Source: Parvibaculum sp.
GTDB lineage: Bacteria; Pseudomonadota; Alphaproteobacteria; Parvibaculales; Parvibaculaceae
NCBI GenBank assembly: GCA_030645235.1
Contig: JAUSMV010000030.1
Coordinates: 868,001-932,000, forward strand
DNA: 64,000 nt
Direction: 5' to 3'
Below are positions 5,217 through 64,000 of this stretch, one piece after another. Made by a program: the position numbers and the translations under genes. The notes below the pieces were generated by a model, which made no database searches, was not told where the DNA came from, and was given only the letters and a program-made list of their open reading frames with translations. Positions within the stretch are counted from its first letter, which is position 1. Each line of letters starts with the position of its first letter.

Positions 5217-5894
5217 GTGGGTATCGCGCGATCAGTGATGACGGCCAAGAAAGCAGCGGGTGCAAAGTCGCCGCGCGCGAAGCCTGCTGTGCCGCCGCCC
5301 GCGTTGAAAAATCCCGCGTCGGACAAGCCCGGTCTCATTCTCGACGCCGCGCTCGATCTCTTCCGTCAGCACGGCTATCGCCGCACCTCGATGGAGGACA
5401 TAGCCAACGCCGCCAATGTCGCCAAGGGCACGCTCTATATCTATTTCAAAAGCAAAGACGAACTCTTTGAAGGTCTCGCGCGCCGCCTCTCCGCCCAGAT
5501 CGCGCAGGATGTGAAAGCAGCCCTTGCCCGCAAGCTGCCCTTTGAAGACAAGGTGCTCGCCGTCCTCGATGCCAAGCTCGGCTTTGTCTATCGCTGGGTG
5601 CTCTCAAGCCCCCATGCGTCGGAGCTCACCGACCCCACGAGCCAATTGCCCGACGATGTGTTCGGTCCCGTCGATCAGGCCTTGCGCGCGAGCCTCGCCG
5701 ATCTCTTCAAGACAGAAGTCAAAGCCGGAAAGATCGATCTCAAAGGCGCAGGCCTCACGCCCGAAACCGCCGTCGATACTTTGCTCGCCGCCGCCCACGG
5801 CGCGGAGATGGGTGCCACAGGCGAAGAGCATTTCCATGAGCGGCTCACCCGTATCGGTCGTCTGACCCTTCGTGGTTTGCGATCCGGACTATGA
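5217..5894 (+). CDS. TetR/AcrR family transcriptional regulator
   Basis: A protein of about 225 residues with a TetR-type helix-turn-helix at about residues 38-85 (ILDAALDLFRQHGY, then RTSMEDIANAANVAKGTLY and IYFKSKDELFE). The Ala/Lys/Pro-rich N-terminal tail is unlike a core TetR domain. The C-terminal ligand domain is not recognisable. The start is uncertain: the GTG at 5217 has CAGG nine bases upstream, and the ATG at 5238 (218 residues) has no clear ribosome site. The gene is divergent from the D-threonine-aldolase-like gene (131 bp between starts), the likeliest target by position. Its tail is followed by the groES promoter region. Confidence 0.9.
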   Translation: MGIARSVMTAKKAAGAKSPRAKPAVPPPALKNPASDKPGLILDAALDLFRQHGYRRTSMEDIANAANVAKGTLYIYFKSKDELFEGLARRLSAQIAQDVKAALARKLPFEDKVLAVLDAKLGFVYRWVLSSPHASELTDPTSQLPDDVFGPVDQALRASLADLFKTEVKAGKIDLKGAGLTPETAVDTLLAAAHGAEMGATGEEHFHERLTRIGRLTLRGLRSGL

Positions 5895-5968
5895 TAAATT
5901 CCGGATTCAATTCAGTCTCTTAACTATAATTTACCATGGATTATTTCGATCAATTTTGCCGCAGTCTC

Positions 5969-6000
5969 CTTGACAGTAGCAGGGGGGAGGCCTATCTGTG
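5969..6000 (+). promoter_or_regulatory. RpoH (sigma-32)-type heat-shock promoter of groESL
   Basis: CTTGAC at 5969-5974 and CCTATCTGTG at 5991-6000, with 18 bases between CTTG and CCTAT. This fits the alphaproteobacterial heat-shock consensus CTTG-N17/18-CYTATNTNNG at every defined position. It also reads as TTGACA-N17-TATCTG for the housekeeping sigma factor. Transcription should begin just before the CIRCE element. Confidence 0.8.
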
Positions 6001-6009
6001 CCCCAGCTG

Positions 6010-6036
6010 TTAGCACTCCTCGTCGTTGAGTGCTAA
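6010..6036 (+). promoter_or_regulatory. CIRCE element (HrcA operator)
   Basis: A perfect TTAGCACTC-N9-GAGTGCTAA (6010-6018 / 6028-6036), the binding site of the HrcA repressor. It lies ten bases after the -10 box, in the transcribed leader 58 bp before groES. HrcA itself is not in the window. Confidence 0.98.
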
Positions 6037-6093
6037 GGCGCTCAATCCAAACGTTTCCCGCATAAAGCGGTTTTCGAAACAGGAGACCTCAAG

Positions 6094-6411
6094 ATGAAAT
6101 TTCGTCCTTTGCATGACCGCGTTGTCGTACGCCGTCTCGACGAAGAAACAAAGACAGCGGGCGGGATCATCATTCCCGAAACCGCGCAGGAAAAGCCCTC
6201 GCAGGGCGAAATCGTCGCTGTTGGCGTCGGTGCACGCGGCGAAGACGGCAAGATCGTCCCCCTCGACGTTAAAGTCGGCGACAAGGTGATCTTCGGCAAA
6301 TGGTCCGGCACGGAAGTCAAAATTGACGGCCAGGATCTGCTGATCATGAAAGAATCCGACATCATGGGCGTCGTCGAAGGCGCCAAGAAGTCGAAAGCTG
6401 CTGCTGAATAA
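6094..6411 (+). CDS. groES: Co-chaperonin GroES
   Basis: The 105-residue lid of the GroEL folding chamber. It begins [14 protein letters not shown], the canonical start, and has the mobile-loop region [20 protein letters not shown] and the later [13 protein letters not shown] roof segment. It is a few residues longer than the usual 95-97 because of a lysine/alanine-rich tail. Shine-Dalgarno CAGGAGA precedes the ATG. First gene of the groESL operon, with groEL starting 94 bp later. Controlled by the heat-shock promoter and CIRCE site upstream. Confidence 0.98.
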
Positions 6412-6493
6412 GGCTTGGGAAGTTCCATCGGAATTTCGCGGGCCTTTTTTGTTGGTCCGCACCCTCAAAGTCTTATGCATACGAATTTAATAA

Positions 6494-8161
<1,668 letters not shown>

Positions 8162-8191
8162 GCCATTCGCTCTGCACTCTGACAAATTGGA

Positions 8192-8226
8192 AACGGCCGG
8201 TGGAAACACCGGCCGTTTTTTGTTTC
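8192..8226 (+). terminator. Intrinsic terminator of groESL
   Basis: A perfect 11-bp stem AACGGCCGGTG / CACCGGCCGTT (8192-8202 / 8207-8217) with a GAAA tetraloop, followed by a run of six Ts. The same stem core and loop recur after the next gene at 8918. Confidence 0.95.
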
Positions 8227-8306
8227 ACCACAGCCAAAACCTGCGATGGCTTTTTTGTGGCCCACCTGCTCTAATTTTTTTGAAACTAAAAATGGGGGAA
8301 CGAACA

Positions 8307-8894
8307 ATGAAGTTTTTGAATTCAGTATTTCTAACGATTACGCTTCTTGGCCTCACCGCTTGTGGCGGTGGTGGCCATCAAGGACCGGCTAATCCCATTC
8401 CGCAGATGACCGGAGCATTTGATCCATCCAAAGAAGCATTAGTTTTTTTCAAAGCTGTCGAAGGAGAAGATGCAGAAGATGCGAGCCTTTTAAAAATTTA
8501 CATTCAGAAAGAAGGCACCTCGCAGATTCAAGAGTACATTTGCGCCGATCCGGAAAACAACGCACCGATTGCTGAACGTCTGGCTCCTGGTCGATACTTA
8601 ATTGTTGTCGTTTCGGGAAACATTCTCGCGACAGTTACCGAACCGGTTCCTGTCGTAACCTTTGATCCTGCAAAGGGCCTCCCACTCACACCGATTGACG
8701 TCAAAGCCGGCGATGTACTTTATGTCGGCAACATCTTCGTTGATGGCATCAACAATAATGCAGCACGCGGACGCGCAGACGGCATAACCTATAAAGTCGA
8801 AGACCACAGTGATCTAGCTAAACAAGCTGTCACCACCTATTACCCCGATCAGGCATCGAAGCTTCAGACAAAGCTCATCAAAGTTTTGCCCTGA
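8307..8894 (+). CDS. Putative lipoprotein, AT-rich, function unknown
   Basis: A 195-residue exported protein. A hydrophobic N-terminal segment is followed by the lipobox LTAC (Cys19) and a glycine stretch, so it should be lipidated and anchored to the membrane. The mature part has no family I recognise. It looks like a compact beta-rich domain, with a central stretch APGRYLIVVVSGN reminiscent of carboxypeptidase-regulatory-like or DUF2846-like lipoproteins; that comparison is weak. GGGGGAA precedes the ATG. Base composition is visibly more AT-rich than the flanking genes. The gene lies between two near-identical terminators, so it is transcribed alone and was probably acquired. Confidence 0.8.
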   Translation: MKFLNSVFLTITLLGLTACGGGGHQGPANPIPQMTGAFDPSKEALVFFKAVEGEDAEDASLLKIYIQKEGTSQIQEYICADPENNAPIAERLAPGRYLIVVVSGNILATVTEPVPVVTFDPAKGLPLTPIDVKAGDVLYVGNIFVDGINNNAARGRADGITYKVEDHSDLAKQAVTTYYPDQASKLQTKLIKVLP

Positions 8895-8917
8895 ACAAGT
8901 TTGCGATAGATCAAAAT

Positions 8918-8946
8918 AGCCGGTGGAAACACCGGCTGTTTTTTTG
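8918..8946 (+). terminator. Intrinsic terminator, look-alike of the groEL terminator
   Basis: Stem AGCCGGTG / CACCGGCT (8918-8925 / 8930-8937) with a GAAA loop, then GTTTTTTTG. It shares CCGGTGGAAACACCGG and the T-tract pattern with the terminator at 8192, suggesting a duplicated element. Confidence 0.93.
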
Positions 8947-9029
8947 TTTTGCAAAGACCCATCCACCGATTGACCAATCAACGCGACATCCTCATGCTGA
9001 CGATCAGGGGAAATCGGGTTGAGGGTGCT

Positions 9030-27987: not shown

Positions 27988-29280
27988 ATGGCGAAGACCT
28001 TTAACGATCTCATCCCCAGCGCGCCCAAGGGCCGCTACGACAACGTGAAGCGCAACTACTCGGTTGCCGACGTTGAAAAACTCCGTGGCTCGTTCCCGAT
28101 TGAGCACACGCTTGCGACACGCGGCGCGAACAAGCTCTGGGAAATGCTGAACTCCGGCGAATATGTCCACTCGCTCGGTGCCATGTCCGGCAACCAGGCC
28201 ATGCAGATGGCGCGCGCTGGTCTCAAAGCCATTTACCTCTCCGGCTGGCAGGTTGCCGCCGACGCCAACACCGCTGGCGCCATGTATCCCGACCAGTCGC
28301 TCTACCCTGCGAATGCCGGTCCGGAACTTGCCAAGCGCATCAACCGCGCTCTGAAGCGTGCTGACGAAATCGAACATTCTGAAGGCGGCGCCAAGCGCGA
28401 TTGGTTCCTCCCCATCGTTGCCGACGCGGAAGCCGGTTTCGGCGGCCCGCTGAACTGCTTCGAAATCATGAAGGCCTATATTGAAGCCGGCGCTTCAGGC
28501 GTTCACTACGAAGACCAGCTCGCATCGGAAAAGAAGTGCGGCCATCTCGGCGGCAAGGTTCTGATCCCGACACGCGCGCATGAGCGCAACCTCAACGCCG
28601 CGCGCCTCGCCGCCGACGTCATGGGCACGCCGACGCTGATCATGGCGCGTACAGACGCCGAATCCGCGAACCTCATCACATCGGACATCGACGAACGCGA
28701 TCACGAGTTCATCGACTTCGACAAGGGCCGCACGGTTGAAGGCTTCTACCGTCTGAAGCCCGGCACAGGCGTTGACCATTGCATTAAGCGCGGCATGGCC
28801 TTTGCGCCTTATGCTGATCTGCTGTGGTGGGAAACATCGGTTCCGAACCTCGACGACGCCAAGCGTTTTGCTGAAGCCGTCCGTAAAGAGCACCCGAACC
28901 AGCTGCTCGCTTACAACTGCTCGCCCTCGTTCAACTGGGAAGCCAAGCTCGACAAGCCGACCATTGCGAAGTTCCAGAAAGAAATCGCAGCGATGGGCTA
29001 CAAGTACCAGTTCGTCACGCTCGCTGGCTTCCACCAGCTCAACCACGGCATGTTTGAATTGGCGTCAGGCTACCGTGACCGTGGCATGGCCGCCTATTCG
29101 GAACTTCAGCAGGCTGAATTTGCCTCGGAAGCCAAGGGCTACACAGCCACACGCCACCAGCGCGAAGTCGGCACCGGCTATTTCGACCTCGTGTCGATCG
29201 CAGCCGCCGGCGGCGAAAGCTCCACAACAGCTCTCGGCGATTCAACCGAAGCCCAGCAGTTCAAAGCCGCCGCTCACTAA
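27988..29280 (+). CDS. aceA: Isocitrate lyase
   Basis: A 430-residue enzyme splitting isocitrate into succinate and glyoxylate, allowing growth on acetate and fatty acids. The signature [11 protein letters not shown] (catalytic Cys near residue 183) is intact, as are [10 protein letters not shown] (metal binding) and [16 protein letters not shown] precedes the ATG. It follows malate synthase by 58 bp. Its 3' end and terminator are duplicated 1.53 kb downstream at 30800-30875, around an inserted two-gene segment. Confidence 0.97.
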
Positions 29281-29303
29281 GCGCGTCGCTTGATTGAAAC
29301 ACG

Positions 29304-29340
29304 AAGCCCGCGGGGAGCGATCCTCGCGGGCTTTTTGTTT
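29304..29340 (+). terminator. Intrinsic terminator of aceBA
   Basis: A 13-bp stem AAGCCCGCGGGGA / TCCTCGCGGGCTT (29304-29316 / 29321-29333, one G-T pair) with a GCGA loop, then TTTGTTT. A diverged second copy lies at about 30838-30875. Confidence 0.93.
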
Positions 29341-29357
29341 TCAAAAAAAGAAGAAAA

Positions 29358-29405
29358 CCCTCTCCCCCTCCTTACTGTTCGCGCCTACGCGCGAGTGGGA
29401 GAGGG
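29358..29405 (-). terminator. Probable terminator of the LLM gene (minus strand)
   Basis: Stem CCCTCTCCC (29358-29366) / GGGAGAGGG (29397-29405). On the minus strand it is followed by TTTTCTTCTTTTTTT. It lies 65 bp past the stop of the LLM oxidoreductase, just inside the left edge of the inserted segment. Confidence 0.7.
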
Positions 29406-29469
29406 AAAAGAGCACTCACCATCGGCTTCAATGGCAGCCCGGACATCGTCGACGGAAACTGCCCGCAGG

Positions 29470-30438
29470 TTAGGCGGCCGGGGCGAGCGCGCGCAGGCTA
29501 TGTTCGGCGGCCTGCGCGTCCATGCCGCCAAAGCGCGACACGAAGGCGAGATGGCGAACGCCGACGGCCGCGTAGCGTTCGATCTGCGCCGCCACCTGTT
29601 CTGGCGTGCCGGCGAGAACCAGATCGCTGGCGCAAAGGTGGCGGTACATCCCATCCGGGTCCGGCAGCTCGATACCCGCCGCAGCCTTGAAGAAGTTCAT
29701 CATCGCGGGAAGTGCGGTGGCCTTGGCCGCGTCTTCCGTTGCAGCAATATACGCAAACACGACGACGACCGACTCCGCGCTTTCCGCCGCGTGGCCGCCA
29801 TCGGCAAGCCCGCGCGCATGCGCCGCGTTGCGCGCCTCCACATCACCCAGTCCCTGCATGGCGGGCGAGACCAGCGTCAGCAGCGAATGCCCGGCCCTGC
29901 CTGCTGCATAGGCACCGTCATCCGTGCCGGTGGCGACATAGATGGGCGGGCGCGGCACCTGCACCGGCGGTATGTTCATACCCTCGGGCCCGCGCACGCC
30001 GTCGCTTGCCGCCTGCCATCGTGCGCAGATTTCCGAAAGCCCCGCATCATAGGCGGCCCGCCTGCCCTCGAAGTCCGCGCCCATGCCCGTGAATTCGACC
30101 TGCTGCGAGCCGGTGCCGACGCCCATGTTGAGGCGCCCGCCGGAAAGCACATCGACGAGCGCATAGTCTTCCGCGATCAGGATGGGATTGCGCATCGGCA
30201 GGACCGCAACTGCCGGGCCCACGCGCAGCCGCGTAGTTGCTTGCGCGATCGCTGCCAGCACCACAGCCGGATTGGGTACAGTGCCCAAAGATGCGAAATG
30301 ATGCTCGGCAAGCCAAAGTGAATGGAAACCAAGCTCGTCCGCCAGCCGCGCCTGCTGAAGTGCTGTGGCATGGATCCGGGCGACCGTTTCACCGGTCTCC
30401 GTATATTGATCAAGCAACCAGAATACCGAACGGCGCAT
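29470..30438 (-). CDS. LLM-class flavin-dependent oxidoreductase
   Basis: A 322-residue member of the bacterial luciferase-like superfamily (TIM barrel using FMNH2 or F420). LGFHSLWLAEHHF near residue 40, then ILIAEDYALVDVLSGGRLNMGVGTGSQ, are superfamily hallmarks, and the C-terminal SDLVLAGTPEQVAAQIERY is typical. GGGGAG precedes the ATG. It follows the small ribbon-helix-helix-like gene by 23 bp, so the two form an operon. This pair sits between duplicated aceA 3' ends and is visibly more GC-rich, with a different codon flavour from aceA, so it is probably acquired. Substrate unknown. Confidence 0.92.
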   Translation of the reverse strand: MRRSVFWLLDQYTETGETVARIHATALQQARLADELGFHSLWLAEHHFASLGTVPNPAVVLAAIAQATTRLRVGPAVAVLPMRNPILIAEDYALVDVLSGGRLNMGVGTGSQQVEFTGMGADFEGRRAAYDAGLSEICARWQAASDGVRGPEGMNIPPVQVPRPPIYVATGTDDGAYAAGRAGHSLLTLVSPAMQGLGDVEARNAAHARGLADGGHAAESAESVVVVFAYIAATEDAAKATALPAMMNFFKAAAGIELPDPDGMYRHLCASDLVLAGTPEQVAAQIERYAAVGVRHLAFVSRFGGMDAQAAEHSLRALAPAA

Positions 30439-30461
30439 CGCGCGTACTCCCCAACAAGTGA

Positions 30462-30731
30462 CTAATTCTCGTCCTGCGGATCGCGTTCGACCATGCGGTG
30501 GCTGGCGCTCGCGTCCAGGTCGAGACCGTAGACGCGCTTCAGCTCCTCGATGGCCTTCAGATGCTCCGGCCGGAACGGAGGCGCCTTGCCCTCGAAGGCA
30601 TGCAGCACGATCCCCTCGAGGAGATCGCCGAGGGACAGGTCGAAATATTCGGCCAGCCCCTTCAGCACCTTGAGGATGCGCTTCTCAATCCGGACGCCCG
30701 TTTGGACGCGCTCTACAACAGGATTTGACAT
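30462..30731 (-). CDS. Small putative ribbon-helix-helix protein
   Basis: An 89-residue protein. The segment TGVRIEKRILKVLKGLAEYF then DLSLGDLLEGIVLHAFEG has the strand-helix-helix pattern of ribbon-helix-helix regulators. The C-terminal part (HLKAIEELKRVYGLDLDASA) is a further helix. I do not recognise a named family. ATG at 30731; a GTG six bases earlier is possible. It is the first gene of the operon with the LLM oxidoreductase. A promoter lies so close that the mRNA may be nearly leaderless, with a partial palindrome inside the promoter that could be its own operator. Confidence 0.65.
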   Translation of the reverse strand: MSNPVVERVQTGVRIEKRILKVLKGLAEYFDLSLGDLLEGIVLHAFEGKAPPFRPEHLKAIEELKRVYGLDLDASASHRMVERDPQDEN

Positions 30732-30738
30732 AGCCACT

Positions 30739-30767
30739 TATGTATCTTGGTACCTTGATAACGTCAA
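30739..30767 (-). promoter_or_regulatory. Promoter of the inserted RHH-LLM operon with internal near-palindrome
   Basis: On the minus strand TTGACG (30767-30762), a 17-base spacer and TACATA (30744-30739). Start of transcription is predicted near 30732, next to the ATG at 30731. The spacer holds GGTACC flanked by TATC and GATA arms (30743-30760), a candidate autoregulatory site. Confidence 0.6.
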
Positions 30768-30799
30768 GCGGAATTCGGGCGCCCCTCCACAAAAAAGAA

Positions 30800-30875
30800 G
30801 CTGCCGCTCACTAAGCGACGCGCTTAACTCAAATGAAGAGCCCGCGTGGAGCGATCCCCGCGGGCTTTTTGTTTT
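30800..30875 (+). repeat. Second copy of the aceA 3' end and terminator
   Basis: GCTGCCGCTCACTAAGCG at 30800 matches the last codons and stop of aceA (29266 onward; 22 of 26 bases in the first block). It is followed by a terminator with the same plan (AGCCCGCG...GGAGCGATCC...CGCGGGCTTTTTGTTTT). The copy is not part of an intact gene. It marks the right edge of a 1.5-kb inserted segment and still works as a plausible terminator. The 214-bp stretch around it contains nothing else. Confidence 0.85.
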
Positions 30876-30951
30876 TGAAATTACATCTGGCGAAACGAAA
30901 CACCGTTCAGCATAGTGATGTACCGTCGGCCCGCTGATCGAAGGAACTTCC

Positions 30952-31410
30952 ATGTCCCCTCGCCCCGCCATCGACATCACGACAATCGTGCCGCGTCCGG
31001 CAGACGAATTATGGACCATCGTCACGAGACCCGAAGGCGTCAATGCCGAGTTGATGCCTCTGGTGCGCATGACTTTTCCGACATCCGATCTCACCATTGC
31101 CGATGCGCCACCGGACGAACCCTTCTTCGTTTCATGGCTTCTGCTTTTCGGATTTCTTCCCTTCGACCGGCACGTCCTCATCATTCACAAAACCGGACCG
31201 CGCTTTTTCATTGAGAGGTCACATAGCCTGATGCAAAAGCTGTGGCAGCACGAACGCTATCTCAGTGATGCGGAAGGCGGCACGGCCGTGCGGGACATCG
31301 TGACCGTGATCCCGCGCCTGATCTTCTTAAGCGCTTTAACAAACACAATCGTCGCGATGATCTTTCGTCACCGGCATCGGCGGCTCGCACGGCGCTACAA
31401 TGCGAATTAG
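30952..31410 (+). CDS. SRPBCC (START-like) family protein
   Basis: A 152-residue protein with an SRPBCC-like opening (IDITTIVPRPADELWTIVTR, then an extended beta-rich middle with GPRFFIERSHSLMQKLWQHE). Length fits the polyketide-cyclase/START-like ligand-binding fold. The C-terminus (LIFLSALTNTIVAMIFRHRH) replaces the usual long final helix by a helix ending in an Arg/His-rich tail. AAGGAAC precedes the ATG. It stands alone between the aceA remnant and repeat copy B. Ligand unknown. Confidence 0.6.
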   Translation: MSPRPAIDITTIVPRPADELWTIVTRPEGVNAELMPLVRMTFPTSDLTIADAPPDEPFFVSWLLLFGFLPFDRHVLIIHKTGPRFFIERSHSLMQKLWQHERYLSDAEGGTAVRDIVTVIPRLIFLSALTNTIVAMIFRHRHRRLARRYNAN

Positions 31411-31692: not shown

Positions 31693-32187
31693 ATGACCTC
31701 ACAACCTCCCTCCCTGGCCACCACCGACCTCTCCGACGCCCATGCCGAAGCGCTCCAATATTGCGCGCCGGTCTTCCGCGATTATGGCGGCATCACAGCG
31801 TTTCATGGCCCCGTCAGCACCCTCAAAGTCTTTGAAGACAATGTGATGGTGCGCGCCGCCGTCGAGACAAAAGGTAAGGGCCGCGTGCTCGTTGTCGATG
31901 GCGCAGGCTCACTTAATTGCGCCCTATTTGGCGGTAATCTCGCCACATTGGCAGCGCAGAATGGGTGGGCAGGTGTCGTCGTCTATGGCTGCATCCGCGA
32001 CACGTTTGAGCTCGCCGCAGAGAAAGTCGGCGTCAAAGCTTTGGCCGCACATCCCAAGCGCAGCGCGCGCATGGGTGCGGGTGAAAAAGATGTGCCCGTG
32101 CGCTTTGCAGGTGTCACAATCAATCCGGATGATTGGCTTTATGCCGATGCCGATGGCATCATTATCTCAAAGACGAAATTGATCTGA
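31693..32187 (+). CDS. RraA family protein (RNase E inhibitor / HMG aldolase-like)
   Basis: A 164-residue protein. The family core GSLNCALFGGNLATLA, then GVVVYGCIRDTFEL, contains the GGN and R-D residues that in 4-hydroxy-4-methyl-2-oxoglutarate aldolases bind substrate and metal and in RraA shape the trimer. Length equals that of RraA proper (about 160) rather than the longer aldolases. Both roles, regulation of RNase E or a class II pyruvate aldolase, remain possible. A serine hydrolase gene follows 29 bp later in the same direction. Confidence 0.88.
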   Translation: MTSQPPSLATTDLSDAHAEALQYCAPVFRDYGGITAFHGPVSTLKVFEDNVMVRAAVETKGKGRVLVVDGAGSLNCALFGGNLATLAAQNGWAGVVVYGCIRDTFELAAEKVGVKALAAHPKRSARMGAGEKDVPVRFAGVTINPDDWLYADADGIIISKTKLI

Positions 32188-32216: not shown

Positions 32217-33359
32217 ATGTCGGAAACCACATCAGCCGTTGAAGTTCACGGCACCTGCGCCAAAGGCTTTGAAGCCGTGCGCGAGGTCTTCGCTTCGCAT
32301 TTCTCAACATCGGGCGAAGTCGGTGCCTCCGTTTGCGTCATCCGCAACGGCGAAGTGCTTGTTGATCTCTGGGGCGGTTATGCCGACGAGGCACACACAA
32401 AATCATGGACGCGCGACACGCTGGCGAATGTCTGGTCCACCACCAAAGGCATGGGCGCTCTCGTCATCGGCATGCTCGTGGAGCGCGGGCTTATTTCGTA
32501 CACGGACAAAGTCTCAAAGCACTGGCCGGAATTTGCCGCCGAAGGCAAAGGCAATATCACCATCGGTCAGATGATGTCACATCAGGCAGGGCTTTGCGGT
32601 CCGGCCGTGCCGACGACATCGGAAGAGATGTGCAACCACGCATTGATGGCCGAACGTCTCGCCGCACAAAAGCCCATCTGGGAACCCGGCTCATGCTCCG
32701 GCTATCACGCGCTCACTGTCGGCATCCTTGCCGGTGAAATTGTCGCCCGTGTCACCGGCAAAACCATCGGTACTTGGTTCAGTGAAAATGTCTCGCGCCC
32801 GTATGAAGTTGATTTCTTCATCGGCCTGCCCGCATCGGAAGATTTCCGCGTCGCTGAAATGATCGCATCCAAAGTCTCCGGCATGCCGTCGAGCAACCTC
32901 AACCCTTCACAGAAGGCGGCGCTCGCCAATCCCGCGCCCGACGCCCTCGTGCCCAATGAGCGCTTCTGGCGTGAGGCCGAGCTTTCATCTGCCAACGGAC
33001 AAGGCACCGCGTCCGCCGTTGCGCGTGTCTATGGTGCGCTCGCCTCAGACGGCAAGATCGACGGCAAAGAACTTGTGAAGCCTGAAACGATTGCCGCCAT
33101 GACGGCGCTGCAAATCGAAGGGCCGGACGAAGTGCTCGGCATGCAGTCACGTTGGGGTGCCGGTTACATTCTCAATGTGGGGGGCATGTATGGTCCCAAT
33201 GACGAAGCCTTCGGCCATTCGGGTTGGGGCGGTTCCTTCGGCATGGCTGATCCGAAGACAGGTCTCGCCATCGCTTACACGATGAACCAGATGGGCGCCG
33301 AACTTGCAGGCGACCCGCGCGCCAATGCGCTCGTCGCGGCGACTTACGCGTCGCTCTGA
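32217..33359 (+). CDS. Serine hydrolase, class C beta-lactamase/EstB family
   Basis: A 380-residue protein without signal peptide, hence likely a cytosolic esterase rather than a beta-lactamase. The catalytic S-x-x-K is in NVWSTTKGMGAL near residue 80. The Tyr motif is SGYHALTVG (Y-x-A rather than Y-x-N). The third box is FGHSGWGGSFG (H-x-G type). This pattern is that of family VIII carboxylesterases. GGGAGAGAGAC precedes the ATG at 32217. It follows the RraA-like gene by 29 bp and is probably co-transcribed. A strong hairpin lies just after the stop. Confidence 0.92.
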   Translation: MSETTSAVEVHGTCAKGFEAVREVFASHFSTSGEVGASVCVIRNGEVLVDLWGGYADEAHTKSWTRDTLANVWSTTKGMGALVIGMLVERGLISYTDKVSKHWPEFAAEGKGNITIGQMMSHQAGLCGPAVPTTSEEMCNHALMAERLAAQKPIWEPGSCSGYHALTVGILAGEIVARVTGKTIGTWFSENVSRPYEVDFFIGLPASEDFRVAEMIASKVSGMPSSNLNPSQKAALANPAPDALVPNERFWREAELSSANGQGTASAVARVYGALASDGKIDGKELVKPETIAAMTALQIEGPDEVLGMQSRWGAGYILNVGGMYGPNDEAFGHSGWGGSFGMADPKTGLAIAYTMNQMGAELAGDPRANALVAATYASL

Positions 33360-57766: not shown

Positions 57767-60700
57767 TTACCACTCGAAACGAGCACCAACGCGCACGCCG
57801 CCTGACTTTTCATAGTCGCCGCCGACCGCGCCGTCATATTGCGCGAAGGCTGTGATGCCGCCACCGACCACCACGTCCACGCCTGCGCCGACTGCGGCAT
57901 AGGTCTGGTCGCGGCTATCCGTGTTGCCGGAGAAGGCAGCGCCTGAGGTGAGGAAGCGACCGTTGACGGTGCTGTCACCGGAGCGCAGTTCTTTGGCAAG
58001 AGCTGCACGAACCGACGGACGCACGCTCCAGGCCGCGTTCGGGTCTTTGATGGTGAAGCCAAGCTCGGCTCCGACCTGTCCGCGCACTGTGTCGCTTGAG
58101 ACGTCCTGAATGGACATGGCTGCTGTACCGCCGCCCGTTTCCGAGTAACCGTCGCGGGCAAGATGCTGCCAGCCGAGGCTTGCGCGGGGAACAATCGTCC
58201 ATGAACCCTGAATGGGGATCGTGTGGCCGATGCTGAAGCCCGCACCTGCTGTCCATGCTTCAGGTGAGCTGTTCGCCGTTGAGACGGTGCCGAGCACCAG
58301 AACGCGACGAGACACGTCCTGTTCCTGATAGGCACCGGTCACGGCTGCCGTCATGAACGTGTTGCCCATGCCGTAAGACGTGTAAGCCGCCACGTTGTAG
58401 CCCTTGATGCCGGTTTCTGAGCCGCCGCCTTCGGTCGTTGCTGTGGTGTCGATGTAACCACCGGCCACACCCACGCTGAAGCCATCGGAACCGAACACGT
58501 CACCACCCATTGCAAGACCCTGGCTCTGAATGTCAGCGCCGCGTGTCGTGCCCATGCCGGAACGGTTGGTCTGGTTGTAGAGACCCGTGCCCCAGATGCC
58601 TCTGTTCTGGCCGACGCCGTCTTCGGCGTTGCCGATCACGGCGTCGAGGAAGGTGAAGCCCATCGTCGTGCCGCCCGTCATGCCTGTATTGACGGAAGCC
58701 GGTGAGGCGGATGTGAGCGAGACAACGCCCGGGCCGCTGTAATCGAACACGCCGCCATTGAAGGTTGAGAACGTGCCGGTGACAGTGCCGGTTGTCGTGA
58801 TCACGTCGCCGACAAAGCCGTCAACGCCGCCGAGGAATTCCATCGTGATGGCCGTGCCGGGATTAATCGTCACGTTGCCGCCGGTCACGTTGAGCAAGTC
58901 GGCCTGGTTGCCTTCAACCTGAACCTTGAAGCCCGAACCCGGATTGAACGTGACGTTACCAACGACGTTCAACGTGCCGGGCGAGTTGCCCGGCGCGACG
59001 GTGCCGTCAACGTCAACATTGCCGATGACCGTACCGGAGCCGCCGAGTGTGCCGCCGACGCCGACATAGATGTCGTCTGCTGTCAGGATGCCGTTAACGG
59101 CAAGCTCACCGCTGACGATTTCGGCATAGCCGCTGCCGAGATTGAGGTTCGATGTGAGGTTCCAGATGTCGCCTTTTTCACCGGAGACTGACAGATAGTC
59201 GAAATTGGTGACCGTGCTGGCAAGCACGCCCTGACCATTGAGGTAAAGGCGATCATTAGAGATGCTGCTACCGGCGATGCTGCCGATGATTTCCGCGCCT
59301 GTGTTCAGATAAAGCGACGAGTTCATCGCGTCAGAGAAGTCGATCGCCGTGCCGCCCGTGCCGCCAACAAAGCCGGCGACATTGATGGCCGTAAATTGAG
59401 CATCATCCTCAACACGAATACCCGTGCCGCCGACAACGCTGGTGCCTTTGTTGATGTTGATGGTGGTGTTTTGATTGCCAAGATAGACCCACGAATATGA
59501 GTCATTGTCGTAATAAGAGCTTTGGCCCGTTACGAGAATACCGGCACGACCGTTACCAGCCACAATAGAGCTTGAACCATTGAGCGTGATAGTTGTGTCT
59601 TCGCTTCCGTTGATCACAACGCCGTTACCGTAGGCCGCAATGATCATTGCGTTGTCGTTGAGCGTCAGTGAGCTGTATTTCTGCTCATCAAACGAAACGC
59701 CGTTGCCGTCAAGCGAGATAACCGATGCATTATCATTCAATGTGACGGCATTGTTCGCGCCTTCACTCAGTACAATACCATCGTCGTAATTGACGCGGAT
59801 GGTGCTGTTGTCATTGAGCGTGACAGTGGTCCCGACGGTCTCATCCACCACAACGCCGTTGCCATAATAGGCAACACGCACGGAGCTGTCGCCATTCATC
59901 GTCAGTGATGAGTAGTCGTCGCGCAAGCGCACGCCGGTGGCAACGTTGGTGTTCATGTCGATGGAAGCGGTGTCGTTCAATGTGATCGACGCACCCTCAC
60001 CACGCGCATCAATGCCGTAGCCGTAACGGATTTCAAAATCTCCGTCATCTTGTCCGATATTGATCGACGAGGCACCGTTCATCACGACGGTTGTGTTGTC
60101 GCCGTAAATGTTGATGCCTCTGGCCAGGTTCAGGTCGCCTGCCGAATCCACATTGATGCTGGACGTGCCGTTCAGCGTGATTACGCCTTCGTCACCAGCG
60201 ATAAGGATACCTTCGTAGGTTCCGTCTGAGTTGCTATATTCATTGGTGCCGAGAACATTGATGCTCGACGAACCGTTCAGCGTCAGCGACGGCGCGTAGG
60301 ACGCATATTTTGCACGAGCACGGCGCCTGTCACCACCCAGCACAACACCGGCTGCCCAAGGATTATCAACATCTTCGCCGCTCAACGTCACGTTGACGGA
60401 AGAAGAACCGTTCAGCGTCACGAGGCCTGCGGCGGAGCTATCTTCACCATAGCTGCTGACGCTCAAGCCCACATAGCTGCTGTTATGGCTGTCGCCCGTG
60501 CCGTTCACATTGATCGTCGAGGTATCGTTCAGTGTAACCGAGGGATCAAAGCTTTCGATCTGCACGCCAACGGTCTCGCCGGAGCTTTCGCCGCCGTCGG
60601 CATTGACGGTGACTGATGAGCCGCCGTTGAGAGCGAGGCTGGCATAGTCGCCGCGCATGATCACGCCGAAGGTCTCTGAATCCCGGTCGTCATTATATGT

Positions 60701-61573
60701 ATCGACGGTGATCGCCGAACCACTATTGAGCGTCAGCGTGTTGCTCTCGCCATACATGGTGACGCCGGTTGTCTCGCTGTATTTCGCGTCATTATAAGCT
60801 TCGACATTGATGACCGAACCGCCATTGAGCGTCAGCACATTATCTGCGCCGCTCATTTCGACGCCGATTGTCTCGGCATATTTCTGACGATTATAGGTTT
60901 CGACGCTGACGGTCGAACCACCATTAAGTGTCAGAGTGCTGGCCTCACCGCCCATGACAATGCCGGTGCTGCTCGCATATTTATTCTCGTTATAGATGTC
61001 GAGCGAGACTTCCGAGGCACCATTGAGCGTCAGCGTATTGCCTGCGCCATAGGCGTTCACAGCAAAGGTTTGGGCATTGTTGCTGCTGGTTGAGCCGTAA
61101 ATATCAATCGATGAGCCGCCGTTCAGCGTCAGATCGACATTATCGCCGTCAATATCGATCGCCGTGCCGGAGTTGCTTCCGTCGAGACCAAGATAAAGCT
61201 GCGAGCCGCTGTTCAGCGTCATCACATTGTCATTGCCATCGAAATTGACGGCCTTGTTGTCGCCATACACGCCAACAGCGGAGTCAGTTCCGAGCGTTAC
61301 AGTATTGCCATTGCCAAACAGATCAATGACGCGGTCTTCATTCGCATAAACATTGGCATCCGCATTGATCGTGACGGTCACGTCACTGGCATCGCCCTCA
61401 ATCGAATATTCAACATTGCCCGAACAGGTGATCGTCACGCCATCGGCAACCGGTCCGCCGTCGCAGGAACCGCCGATATCCGCATGAGCGGCGCTGGTGG
61501 CCATAAAAAAAGCGCCCGCAACGAGGGCACTTGAGCCGAGCAACTGTCGGCGGAACTTCGAATGAATATGCAC
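57767..61573 (-). CDS. Autotransporter with repetitive beta-helix passenger
   Basis: A 1268-residue type V secretion protein. An N-terminal signal peptide (residues 1-31, ending TSAAHA) is followed by a passenger made of TLNG-type repeats: six units of exactly 33 residues at about 148-345, then shorter 26-27-residue units. These predict a long beta-helix. The last 270 residues form the autotransporter beta-barrel, ending ARFEW as expected for outer-membrane insertion. The start is GTG at 61573 with AAAGGGAATAACC upstream; further upstream starts give no signal peptide. Same orientation as a paralogue at 61711. The passenger's role (adhesion, biofilm) is inference. Confidence 0.93.
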   Translation of the reverse strand: MHIHSKFRRQLLGSSALVAGAFFMATSAAHADIGGSCDGGPVADGVTITCSGNVEYSIEGDASDVTVTINADANVYANEDRVIDLFGNGNTVTLGTDSAVGVYGDNKAVNFDGNDNVMTLNSGSQLYLGLDGSNSGTAIDIDGDNVDLTLNGGSSIDIYGSTSSNNAQTFAVNAYGAGNTLTLNGASEVSLDIYNENKYASSTGIVMGGEASTLTLNGGSTVSVETYNRQKYAETIGVEMSGADNVLTLNGGSVINVEAYNDAKYSETTGVTMYGESNTLTLNSGSAITVDTYNDDRDSETFGVIMRGDYASLALNGGSSVTVNADGGESSGETVGVQIESFDPSVTLNDTSTINVNGTGDSHNSSYVGLSVSSYGEDSSAAGLVTLNGSSSVNVTLSGEDVDNPWAAGVVLGGDRRRARAKYASYAPSLTLNGSSSINVLGTNEYSNSDGTYEGILIAGDEGVITLNGTSSINVDSAGDLNLARGINIYGDNTTVVMNGASSINIGQDDGDFEIRYGYGIDARGEGASITLNDTASIDMNTNVATGVRLRDDYSSLTMNGDSSVRVAYYGNGVVVDETVGTTVTLNDNSTIRVNYDDGIVLSEGANNAVTLNDNASVISLDGNGVSFDEQKYSSLTLNDNAMIIAAYGNGVVINGSEDTTITLNGSSSIVAGNGRAGILVTGQSSYYDNDSYSWVYLGNQNTTININKGTSVVGGTGIRVEDDAQFTAINVAGFVGGTGGTAIDFSDAMNSSLYLNTGAEIIGSIAGSSISNDRLYLNGQGVLASTVTNFDYLSVSGEKGDIWNLTSNLNLGSGYAEIVSGELAVNGILTADDIYVGVGGTLGGSGTVIGNVDVDGTVAPGNSPGTLNVVGNVTFNPGSGFKVQVEGNQADLLNVTGGNVTINPGTAITMEFLGGVDGFVGDVITTTGTVTGTFSTFNGGVFDYSGPGVVSLTSASPASVNTGMTGGTTMGFTFLDAVIGNAEDGVGQNRGIWGTGLYNQTNRSGMGTTRGADIQSQGLAMGGDVFGSDGFSVGVAGGYIDTTATTEGGGSETGIKGYNVAAYTSYGMGNTFMTAAVTGAYQEQDVSRRVLVLGTVSTANSSPEAWTAGAGFSIGHTIPIQGSWTIVPRASLGWQHLARDGYSETGGGTAAMSIQDVSSDTVRGQVGAELGFTIKDPNAAWSVRPSVRAALAKELRSGDSTVNGRFLTSGAAFSGNTDSRDQTYAAVGAGVDVVVGGGITAFAQYDGAVGGDYEKSGGVRVGARFEW
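60539..61132 (-). repeat. Six 99-bp coding repeats in the autotransporter passenger
   Basis: Units of exactly 99 bp begin (minus strand) at 61132, 61033, 60934, 60835, 60736 and 60637. Each encodes L-x-L-N-x-(A/G)-S at its start, and several carry an ET-x-GV motif about 20 residues later. In the middle four units a Tyr-Asn plus charged cluster is shared. The repeats are diverged at the base level, so this is an old expansion retained at protein level, not a recent slippage tract. Confidence 0.9.
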
Positions 61574-61710
61574 GGTTATTCCCTTTACTAATTTCGGGCA
61601 TATGGCACTAACCGGCACAACTAAGCCATCACCCAAAAGAACGAATTCGGGTGAATAGATCGTCTTTGTTTACAATTGCTAAGGTAGTGACAAAGAAGGC
61701 GCAGATTGAC

Positions 61711-64000
61711 TTACCACTCGAATCGAAATCCGCCACGCACACCACCAGATGTCTCGACATCGCCGCCGACACCACCGTCATAACTCACGAAAGCCGTCAC
61801 GCCGTAACCGACGCCGACATCAACACCCGCACCTAACGCAAGGTAAGACTGATCGCGCTGATCAAGCGCTGCAGTGAAACGTGCACCGGATGCCACAAAC
61901 CTACCAGTTGCCGTCGCGTCACCGCCGCGCCACTCCTGCACAAGAGCGGCGTTGATCGCCGGCCGCACTTTCCACGTGGCATCGGGGTCAGCGATGTTGA
62001 GCGACAATTCTGCGCCTGCGCGCGCACGCATGGTGTCGGACGCGATGCCATCCAGCGCAAAAGCACCCGCGCCGCCGCCTGTTTCGCTAAAGCCGTCGCG
62101 CTCCACATGCTGGTAGGTCACACCTGCCTGCGGAGTGAGCGTGAAAGCGCCGTTGAGCGGCAGATCATGGCCGATGCCGAGACCCGCGCCGCCTGACCAG
62201 GCTTCCGGTGCGCCGCGCGCCGTGAGAAGAACGCCGCCCGCCAGCACATTGCGTGACACGGATTGGTCCTGATAGGCCGCTGTCAGTGCGCCCGTCGCCC
62301 ATGTGCTGCCCGTCTTGTAAGAGCCATAGGCGGCTGCGTGATAGCCGTCGATGGTTGAGCGCGAGCCGCCGCCTGCGGTTGTCGCCTTGCCATCGAGATA
62401 GCCGCCTGCGAGGCCGAACTTCATCTCGCCGCTTTGCCAGATGTCGCCGCCGAAGGCGCCGCCCGTATTGCGGCTCTCAAAGCCGCGCGATAAGCCATCG
62501 CCCGCGCGGTCGGAGCGGTCCGAGAGGGTCGTTGCCCAAAGCGTTTGGCCCGTACCGGCGCTGCGGCTCGCCTGACCCAACACCGTGTCGAGAAAGAGGA
62601 AGCCCTGCGATGCACCTGCCGACATTGCACCGTTGAGGCTTGAGGATGATGTTGAAACCAGTGTCAGAACATTGGGATTTGAATAATCAAGCACGCCTGC
62701 ACCGGCGAAAGCGAACGCGCCTGTGATGCCGCCGGTTGCGGTGAGAATGTCACCGGCAAAGCCGTCCGTGCCGCCTGTAAATGTCGCCTGCAAGATCGCG
62801 CCCGGATCAATCGTCACCGTGCCCGGTGCGCCCGACACATTAAGCTGGTCGGCCAGACCACCGGCGATTTCAACATCAAAGACCGAACCCGCCGCCATGG
62901 TGACGGAACCCACGACATTCATCACACCGGGCGACTGGCCGGGCGCGAGCGTGCCGTAGTTGGTGATATCGCCTTCGATGAGTCCTGTGCCGCCCAGCGT
63001 CGCGCCTTGTTCAATCGTGATGCCTGACGACGCATAGAGATTGCCGATCGCGACAAGTTTGCCGGAATTGATTGTGACCGTATCAGCAAACGTGGAGGTC
63101 AGTGTCCCGAGCGTCCATGTGCCTGTGGCATTCACAGTCAGTTCGTCAAAGCCCAAGACATTGTCGATGAGCGTGCCTGCGCCTTGCAGCACCAGACTGT
63201 CGCCATTGCCGCTGCCGCCGCCTTCGATAGAGCCGATGATCGTTGCCGAATTGAGAATGACCGTGTTGCTAAAGCCGCCGTTCATATCAATCGCGGTGCC
63301 GCCCGTGCCGACGACTGTGCCGTTGATGGTGATCGTGTCGAAGGTGTCGCTCACATAGAGGCCGTTGTAGCCCGAGAGATAGGCGTTCTCACCGAGAAAA
63401 ACGGAATTATAGAACCCCCCCGCCATCACAATCGCAGGCGCATCGGCTGCCAATATTTGCGCCTGGCCATTGAGCGTGATGGTGCTGTCGATATTGCCGC
63501 CGAGCAGAAGGCCGACCATACCACGCGGCCCCATTTCGGCATTGGTCGTGTCAATCGTCGCATAGTCGTTGAGCGCAACTTCGTTCCCCAAACCATAAAC
63601 GGCAACGCCCGCACCGCCAGAATTTGCGTAGCCGTTCATCGTCACAGAAGAGTTGCCGTTCAGCGTCAGCTGTCCGTAAGCGCTGTTCATCACGACGCCG
63701 ATGGCGTCTTGCGCTTCGACGAAATTGAGCGTGACGTTCGCACTGTCATTGAGCGTGATGTTGACGTAATCGCCGCCCGCGCCGATGCCGGAAACATAGC
63801 TCGCTACGCCGCCATCGGCATTTACACGCACAAAGCTCGTGCCGTTGAGTATCACGGATGTGTAGTCACCGAACTGGCCGATGCCTGCATAGTCACTGGA
63901 GCCGCCGGTGCCATAGACCCGCACATTGGCCCCTCCGTTGAGCGTGATCGTACCGAAATCGCCGCGCTGCATCGTGCCGACAATCGTGCCGGTGGCTGCA
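61711..64000 (-). CDS. Autotransporter, paralogue of its neighbour; N-terminus beyond window
   Basis: The visible part is over 760 residues and the frame is open through the right edge, so signal peptide and first passenger part are missing. The passenger again consists of TLNG/xLNDxA repeats of about 25-30 residues. A linker with GTLAPGQSPGVMNVVG leads to a barrel domain in the last 280 residues, ending GFRFEW. The linker and barrel are clearly similar to those of the gene at 57767 (for instance PGNSPGTLNVVG and GARFEW there), so the two arose by tandem duplication. There are 137 bp between the genes, enough for a separate promoter. Confidence 0.93.
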   Translation of the reverse strand, partial: AATGTIVGTMQRGDFGTITLNGGANVRVYGTGGSSDYAGIGQFGDYTSVILNGTSFVRVNADGGVASYVSGIGAGGDYVNITLNDSANVTLNFVEAQDAIGVVMNSAYGQLTLNGNSSVTMNGYANSGGAGVAVYGLGNEVALNDYATIDTTNAEMGPRGMVGLLLGGNIDSTITLNGQAQILAADAPAIVMAGGFYNSVFLGENAYLSGYNGLYVSDTFDTITINGTVVGTGGTAIDMNGGFSNTVILNSATIIGSIEGGGSGNGDSLVLQGAGTLIDNVLGFDELTVNATGTWTLGTLTSTFADTVTINSGKLVAIGNLYASSGITIEQGATLGGTGLIEGDITNYGTLAPGQSPGVMNVVGSVTMAAGSVFDVEIAGGLADQLNVSGAPGTVTIDPGAILQATFTGGTDGFAGDILTATGGITGAFAFAGAGVLDYSNPNVLTLVSTSSSSLNGAMSAGASQGFLFLDTVLGQASRSAGTGQTLWATTLSDRSDRAGDGLSRGFESRNTGGAFGGDIWQSGEMKFGLAGGYLDGKATTAGGGSRSTIDGYHAAAYGSYKTGSTWATGALTAAYQDQSVSRNVLAGGVLLTARGAPEAWSGGAGLGIGHDLPLNGAFTLTPQAGVTYQHVERDGFSETGGGAGAFALDGIASDTMRARAGAELSLNIADPDATWKVRPAINAALVQEWRGGDATATGRFVASGARFTAALDQRDQSYLALGAGVDVGVGYGVTAFVSYDGGVGGDVETSGGVRGGFRFEW

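Follow-up and report, generated by a model that had tools for sequence, protein, structure and literature searches.

How has the end of aceA, the isocitrate lyase gene, come to stand twice in one locus of a Parvibaculum genome, once on the gene itself and once, without a gene, on the far side of two genes of opposite orientation? The locus lies in a stretch of 64,000 nucleotides (nt) from Parvibaculum sp. (assembly GCA_030645235.1, contig JAUSMV010000030.1, forward-strand positions 868,001 to 932,000), referred to below as the window; the window's own genome is coded G000, and its relatives are coded G001 onward. The intact aceA gene (27988 to 29280, forward strand) was identified as a PRK15063 equivalog (721.6 bits, cut-off 562) and is the sole full-length match in the genome. 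By alignment and folding, its last codons, stop codon, and terminator hairpin (copy 1, 29264 to 29346, forward strand) recur in diverged form as a displaced, geneless copy 2 (30798 to 30880, forward strand), the two being alike at 67 of 83 positions without a gap. We suggest that this duplication is quite probably a recombination scar, left when related DNA recombined via aceA on one side and was joined without long homology on the other.

The repeat unit comprises the last codons of aceA, the stop codon, a spacer, the hairpin, and the T-run. The longest perfect run extends over the stop codon (15 nt, GCCGCTCACTAAGCG), and a second one of 17 nt covers the hairpin foot and the T-run. The hairpin of copy 1 folds with -31.2 kcal/mol (z -7.6) and that of copy 2 with -27.6 kcal/mol (z -6.2), the latter featuring one mismatch at the position of a wobble pair in copy 1. 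Global alignment of the two copies gave a score of 107.5, whereas none of 2,000 single-base shuffles exceeded 35. Both the recurrence and the lack of an attached gene had been claimed in a preliminary description of the window, and both hold: no aceA body was found upstream of copy 2, where the remainder of the tail amounts to about 5 codons, or 8 on a loose reading. The stop codon of each copy lies in a near-palindrome (29278 to 29291 and 30813 to 30826) whose three central bases are CGT in the first copy and ACG in the second, each 14-mer being the exact reverse complement of the other.

When G000 was searched with a 641-base query from copy 2, the sole other forward match listed was copy 1 (82% over 78 nt, E 4.7e-15, 78.8 bits), followed by the copy 1 hairpin on the reverse strand (E 9.2e-5). 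For the copy 2 part, the best match listed in 39 other genomes falls about 20 bits short of copy 1; it is a pyrophosphatase gene end from another genus (E 8.1e-9, 58.1 bits, 76% over 79 nt). Of 47 first-look candidates in this search, 14 were scored. Copy 2 is also nearer to copy 1 than to the aceA end of any of 29 relatives (G036 and G007 have no usable aceA tail).

The two genes between the copies are located on the reverse strand and are richer in G+C than the window, in agreement with the preliminary description. They encode a luciferase-like flavin monooxygenase (LLM, 29470 to 30438; PF00296, E 3.2e-46) and an RHH-like small protein, a probable regulator (RHH, 30462 to 30737, with a start at 30731 being more likely); the G+C content is 65.2% for 29470 to 30737, 60.2% for aceA, and 57.9% for the window. 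The pair was exchanged horizontally, as its synonymous divergence (dS) from one relative, G010, is anomalously low (0.24 for LLM, 0.14 for RHH) compared with that of three neighboring genes (0.84 for glcB, 0.60 for aceA, and 0.90 for ScfR; ScfR rows involving G011 were left out as a wrong match).

Homology to G010, at 92%, begins at 29417 and breaks off at 30794. Its first part is the 3′ remnant of a β-helix gene (29417 to 29465, forward strand, about 16 codons, stop codon lost), recognized by alignment with the gene end beside LLM on G010 contig C126. In G010, the β-helix gene, which matches PF13229, directly adjoins LLM, and its N-terminal 60 residues found no match in G000. Between copy 1 and the incoming genes lies a dispersed palindrome resembling repetitive extragenic palindromes (REP-like; 29359 to 29405; 22 own-genome matches including itself; -27 kcal/mol, z -4.0). 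The G010 contig shows the order β-helix gene, LLM, RHH, and the start of mem; in G002 and G013 the β-helix gene directly follows aceA and is followed by mem, and in G011 the order is aceA, LLM, RHH, mem. As the remnant adjoins LLM in G010 and the β-helix gene follows aceA in G002 and G013, the stretch from aceA to RHH looks like a donor-type order kept in the window, with the β-helix gene nearly all deleted and the REP-like repeat at the deletion. A homologous, collinear border running from aceA (via the β-helix gene) to LLM and RHH can be pieced together from G010, G011, G002, and G013. Just before LLM, G011 contains a stretch resembling the aceA tail at 27 of 32 nt, which is suggestive only (an equal or better score was reached by 2 of 600 random segments).

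Beyond copy 2, a different order begins. It consists of orf152 (30952 to 31410, forward strand), an RraA-like gene (31693 to 32187, forward strand; PF03737), and a β-lactamase-family gene, the next in the resident-type order (32217 to 33359, forward strand; PF00144, E 1.6e-72). Homologues of orf152 were found in none of 26 other Parvibaculum genomes and in four of seven genomes of another genus of the family. In those four, orf152 stands downstream of aceA and precedes a homologue of the β-lactamase-family gene with 54 to 56% identity; G028 and G062 show this order directly, and G035 and G032 have extra sequence before orf152. Because the order of orf152 and the β-lactamase-family gene follows aceA in that genus, copy 2 together with orf152, the RraA-like gene, and the β-lactamase-family gene looks, by gene order, like a second aceA downstream region.

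The two gene orders meet at one new join (30790 to 30806), where the sequence upstream of RHH abuts the displaced tail of aceA: homology to G010 ends at 30794, and homology to the aceA end starts at 30798. This border has no long homology and at most a short one. At the join, where a terminator-like hairpin starts, the donor-side DNA of G010 reads GAAAAAGGCCGC; AAGGCC(G) occupies this place in the aceA tails of G001, G015, G010, and G004 and extends to AAGGCCGC in G001 and G015. Judged from these relatives, an 8-nt short homology, AAGGCCGC, at the join is plausible.

On the opposite side, the end of aceA itself was probably exchanged, as suggested by its codon divergence. For the codons after 28924, dS to G003, the nearest relative by RraA, speE, and the 3′ part of aceA, is 0.24, compared with 0.56 to 0.97 to the 14 other genomes tabulated, and the longest identical aceA run shared with G003 measures 130 nt, compared with 68 nt for any of 23 others. 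The 130-nt run (28925 to 29054) is located at the very end of the G003 contig, and its identity is possibly due to a recent exchange or to a shared-assembly effect. For the mechanism, these exchange traces are support and not proof.

The interval from aceA to the RraA-like gene, which forms its right border, is a variable slot. In 23 of 28 regions, RraA lies 0.1 to 8.7 kb downstream of aceA with differing genes in between (the remaining five end early), i.e., the same flanks enclose variable content across relatives, as at a hotspot. For 25 of the 28 regions (G008, G009, and G021 have no tail in the set), the genome's own aceA tail was searched in the downstream DNA, several regions being shortened by contig ends (G010 to 217 nt, G023 to 1,128 nt, G012 to 1,417 nt, and G005 to 2,272 nt). 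G000 scored 96, G006 scored 89, and the other 23 scored at most 34; the reverse-strand maximum of 54 came from the palindromic hairpin of G000. No second end was found in these 23 genomes. G003 has one terminator, as the preliminary description expected of an empty site, but its slot holds another gene and is not strictly empty. In G006, the second end is a remnant read as NSLEAEQFQ plus stop, followed by a terminator identical over 37 nt, and it resembles the G020 tail more closely than that of G006 itself. The G006 gene between the two aceA ends (L217, 9689 to 10060) weakly matches an NTF2-fold immunity protein (E 2.5e-5, 24.8 bits, cut-off 26).

Homology-facilitated illegitimate recombination is favored because one border is homologous (aceA) and the other is without long homology; from the duplication, the low divergence of LLM and RHH, the two orders at one join, and the variable slot, we infer a one-sided homologous mechanism. 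Specifically, DNA of a related Parvibaculum, extending from aceA through LLM and RHH, would have aligned with the aceA gene of the recipient and recombined there by crossover, and the other incoming end, upstream of RHH and without long homology, would have been joined inside the terminal codons of that resident gene. Copy 1, the new aceA end, would have arrived on the incoming strand, leaving the gene intact. Copy 2, the old end, would have been pushed beyond the newcomers, and it probably survives as a vestigial terminator between two divergent genes, RHH and orf152. The vehicle may have been a gene transfer agent (GTA) or free DNA: G000 is one of 33 genomes, out of 40 from the family, that carry the GTA marker PF13547, and DprA is present.

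Several observations weigh against this reading. At the join, the window itself reads AAGAAGCTGCCGC, the short homology being derived from the relatives. The donor order is intact in its entirety in no single genome, and in G011 the LLM-RHH pair stands beside aceA with no second aceA-like terminator. The near-identical G003 stretch ends before the aceA stop codon and need not stem from the same event, the aceA gene of G003 is known only from codon 314, and the G003 contig begins at the run. Ku was not found. The assemblies of G000 and G003 are fragmented, so a misjoin is possible. Finally, copy 1 is nearer to the aceA end of G003 (106.5) than copy 2 is (83.5), which fits an inherited copy 1. 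As to the direction of the exchange, this proximity of copy 1 is set against orf152, which after copy 2 continues the order of another genus; we lean only slightly toward copy 1 as the newcomer and copy 2 as the resident. To the question posed in the preliminary description, which copy fits the relatives better, the answer for G003 is copy 1.

The mirror image of this course of events is the strongest competitor, although we consider it unlikely. Here, copy 1 would have been inherited and LLM-RHH acquired earlier, and a fragment with copy 2, orf152, and RraA would have come later from the aceA tail of another strain, its left join being illegitimate. The proximity of copy 1 to G003, the absence of orf152 from the 26 other Parvibaculum genomes, and the G003-like genes on both sides agree with such a sequence, but it needs two imports instead of one, and in another genus of the family orf152 follows an aceA end. 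Recombination with the aceA of a related strain, the second possibility raised in the preliminary description, is supported, since both sides keep aceA-locus orders of relatives and the divergence of LLM-RHH from a congener is anomalously low.

The first possibility raised there was integration at the aceA 3′ end in the manner of elements at tRNA genes. Integrative elements at the 3′ ends of tRNA or protein genes restore the gene end and leave a partial copy at their far side, and the arrangement of intact gene, insert, and partial 3′ copy, seen in G006 as well, is the structure of such elements. A site-specific element that restored the gene end and later lost its integrase is nevertheless quite improbable. 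The absence of an integrase, already stated in the preliminary description, applies to LLM and RHH and also to two proteins scanned from the comparable G006 slot; by itself, this absence would not suffice against integration. In addition, no identical attachment (att) core is shared by the repeats, the perfect blocks of 15 and 17 nt lying amid 16 mismatches in 83 positions, and the identical blocks differ in place, comprising the stop codon and the hairpin foot in G000 but the terminator in G006. The aceA tail was rejected as an att site, on the grounds of an integrase-free segment and no common core; the restored gene end stands as an outcome, but the tRNA-like mechanism is not supported. Relatives with both genes in an ancestral state but no second aceA-like end had been named in the preliminary description as a possible refutation. 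G011 corresponds to this in part, and it shows that the pair can do without a second end.

A comparably slight chance attaches to a single crossover of a circle bearing a short aceA end, or to an insertion that followed local tandem duplication of the aceA end. Both would yield direct repeats around an insert, but the repeat comprises only about 83 nt, its copies differ at 16 of 83 positions, and two full-length aceA copies were present in no genome of the full-length aceA search. Chance likeness of two ordinary terminators, named in the preliminary description as a possible refutation, is next to impossible and was rejected by genome searches, shuffles, and terminator-pair controls: terminators of the family do share loops and stems, as the pyrophosphatase gene end illustrates, but the similarity takes in codons and the stop, outscores every other match listed for 40 genomes, and reaches a score of at least 52 in 2 of 58 nearby same-strand terminator pairs of G000 versus 5 of 14,244 distant draws.

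What deserves following up is that gene-end scars recur, at groEL as well as at aceA. By sequence comparison, similar scars seem to be present in two relatives and, in G000, beside a second gene, groEL. The groEL terminator is similar in most Parvibaculum genomes and is doubled in G000 and G001 among 28 usable loci (of 30 loci, these 28 offered both a usable stop codon and downstream sequence, in one case only 220 nt). In G000, the copies are located at 8191 to 8225 and 8914 to 8950, or at 8191 to 8247 and 8914 to 8970 when delimited more widely, and share an identical 18-nt hairpin core; between them lies a stretch of low G+C content (46.9%) with a putative lipoprotein gene (8307 to 8894, lipobox recognized by eye), which matched no Pfam family and has homologues beside groEL in G033 and G036. 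In G001 (L293), a terminator duplicate identical at 44 of 46 nt, with the copies about 0.8 kb apart, bounds a cassette with a short open reading frame downstream of groEL. In 1.6 Mb from three genomes, nearby same-strand terminator pairs scored at least 52 in 2 of 58 cases in G000, 0 of 10 in G013, and 1 of 21 in G001, compared with 0 of 296 pairs at 3 to 12 kb, 0 of 90 opposite-strand pairs (1 of 90 at a score of at least 46), and 5 of 41,221 distant draws; the survey was not blind, as the G000 stretch was chosen for the window and the G001 stretch for groEL, and far pairs were drawn with replacement. It is conceivable, though rather doubtful, that GTA-fed cassettes of one or two genes land repeatedly at the 3′ ends and terminators of highly conserved Parvibaculum housekeeping genes (aceA, groEL), with the end regenerated and the old end left as a scar.

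As for the LLM-RHH pair, the RHH label is at the level of a sequence pattern. The protein matched no Pfam or NCBIfam family at E 0.001, and a fold check did not confirm the fold (AlphaFold mean predicted local distance difference test 75.7, predicted template modeling score 0.59, no PDB match at E of at most 0.001). An RHH homologue lies near an LLM gene in 7 of 80 named loci, just upstream of it in two Parvibaculum, a Myxococcota, a Deltaproteobacteria, and two Ktedonobacteraceae records, and on the other strand in an Acidobacteriota record. An exact GGTACC precedes 8 of 12 RHH homologues examined (counted by eye, three being close relatives), and the window has a candidate RHH-LLM operator, TATCAAGGTACCAAGATA, at 30738 to 30765 on the reverse strand. 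Most likely, the pair is an operon of a regulator and a flavin monooxygenase in which RHH would control its own promoter at the GGTACC palindrome. Palindromes such as those at 30743 to 30760 may be the operator sites of a regulator family not yet described. Close homologues of both proteins occur in four of 61 genomes, namely G000, G010, G011, and G028. In G028, which belongs to another genus, LLM is 57% identical, and the pair is located directly downstream of groEL on the same strand (L071, about 5795 to 7335), not of aceA. Plasmid searches gave 1,230 records for LLM, all below 60% identity, and one for RHH, which had no record among phages. LLM also matches PADLOC C3a156 (E 2.5e-22), which may merely reflect the broad luciferase-like family. 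Elsewhere in the window, 58419 to 63514 contains tandem 99-nt and other imperfect direct repeats.

Gene gain anchored by homology at a slot beside core genes is of a kind already known (PMC5635113 and PMC2884548). Illegitimate recombination facilitated by homology is described in the relevant passages of PMC3240628 for S. pneumoniae, Acinetobacter baylyi, and Pseudomonas stutzeri, and by conjugation for E. coli, with inserts of about 1 kb. The likeness lies in homologous pairing at one end and an illegitimate join at the other with no integrase; unlike the events in those passages, the present case is a genomic scar alone, between species and at a metabolic gene. In the displacement of type VI secretion effector/immunity genes of Vibrio cholerae, for which the corresponding passages of PMC5361080 give the mechanism as the authors' proposal, an upstream anchor is likewise conserved, and old 3′ ends and genes are shifted behind the incoming module; there, however, a secretion cluster with a variable effector is concerned, whereas here the housekeeping enzyme is intact and a few codons with a terminator are displaced. 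Core-gene hotspots, as treated in parts of PMC5635113, share with aceA a variable slot between two core genes, no recognizable mobile elements, and exchange traces in flanking genes, but the model given there is double homologous recombination, whereas one join here is without long homology. Homology-assisted illegitimate joins are proposed in PMC2884548 for many small genome differences; the comparisons in those passages are within species, and a displaced gene end is not their subject. Literature searches for a duplicated terminator with horizontal gene transfer and for integration hotspots at protein genes returned nothing.

What distinguishes the present locus from integrative elements at gene 3′ ends is that it has neither an integrase nor an att core. 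A duplicated, diverged gene end is a readable scar that can show which side of an insertion was homologous and which was not. Such scars could be counted across genomes, which would give access to the frequency of integrase-free gene gain of this type. If aceA and groEL are indeed recurrent landing places, Parvibaculum would gain cassettes together with a terminator between neighboring genes, at no cost to the core gene.

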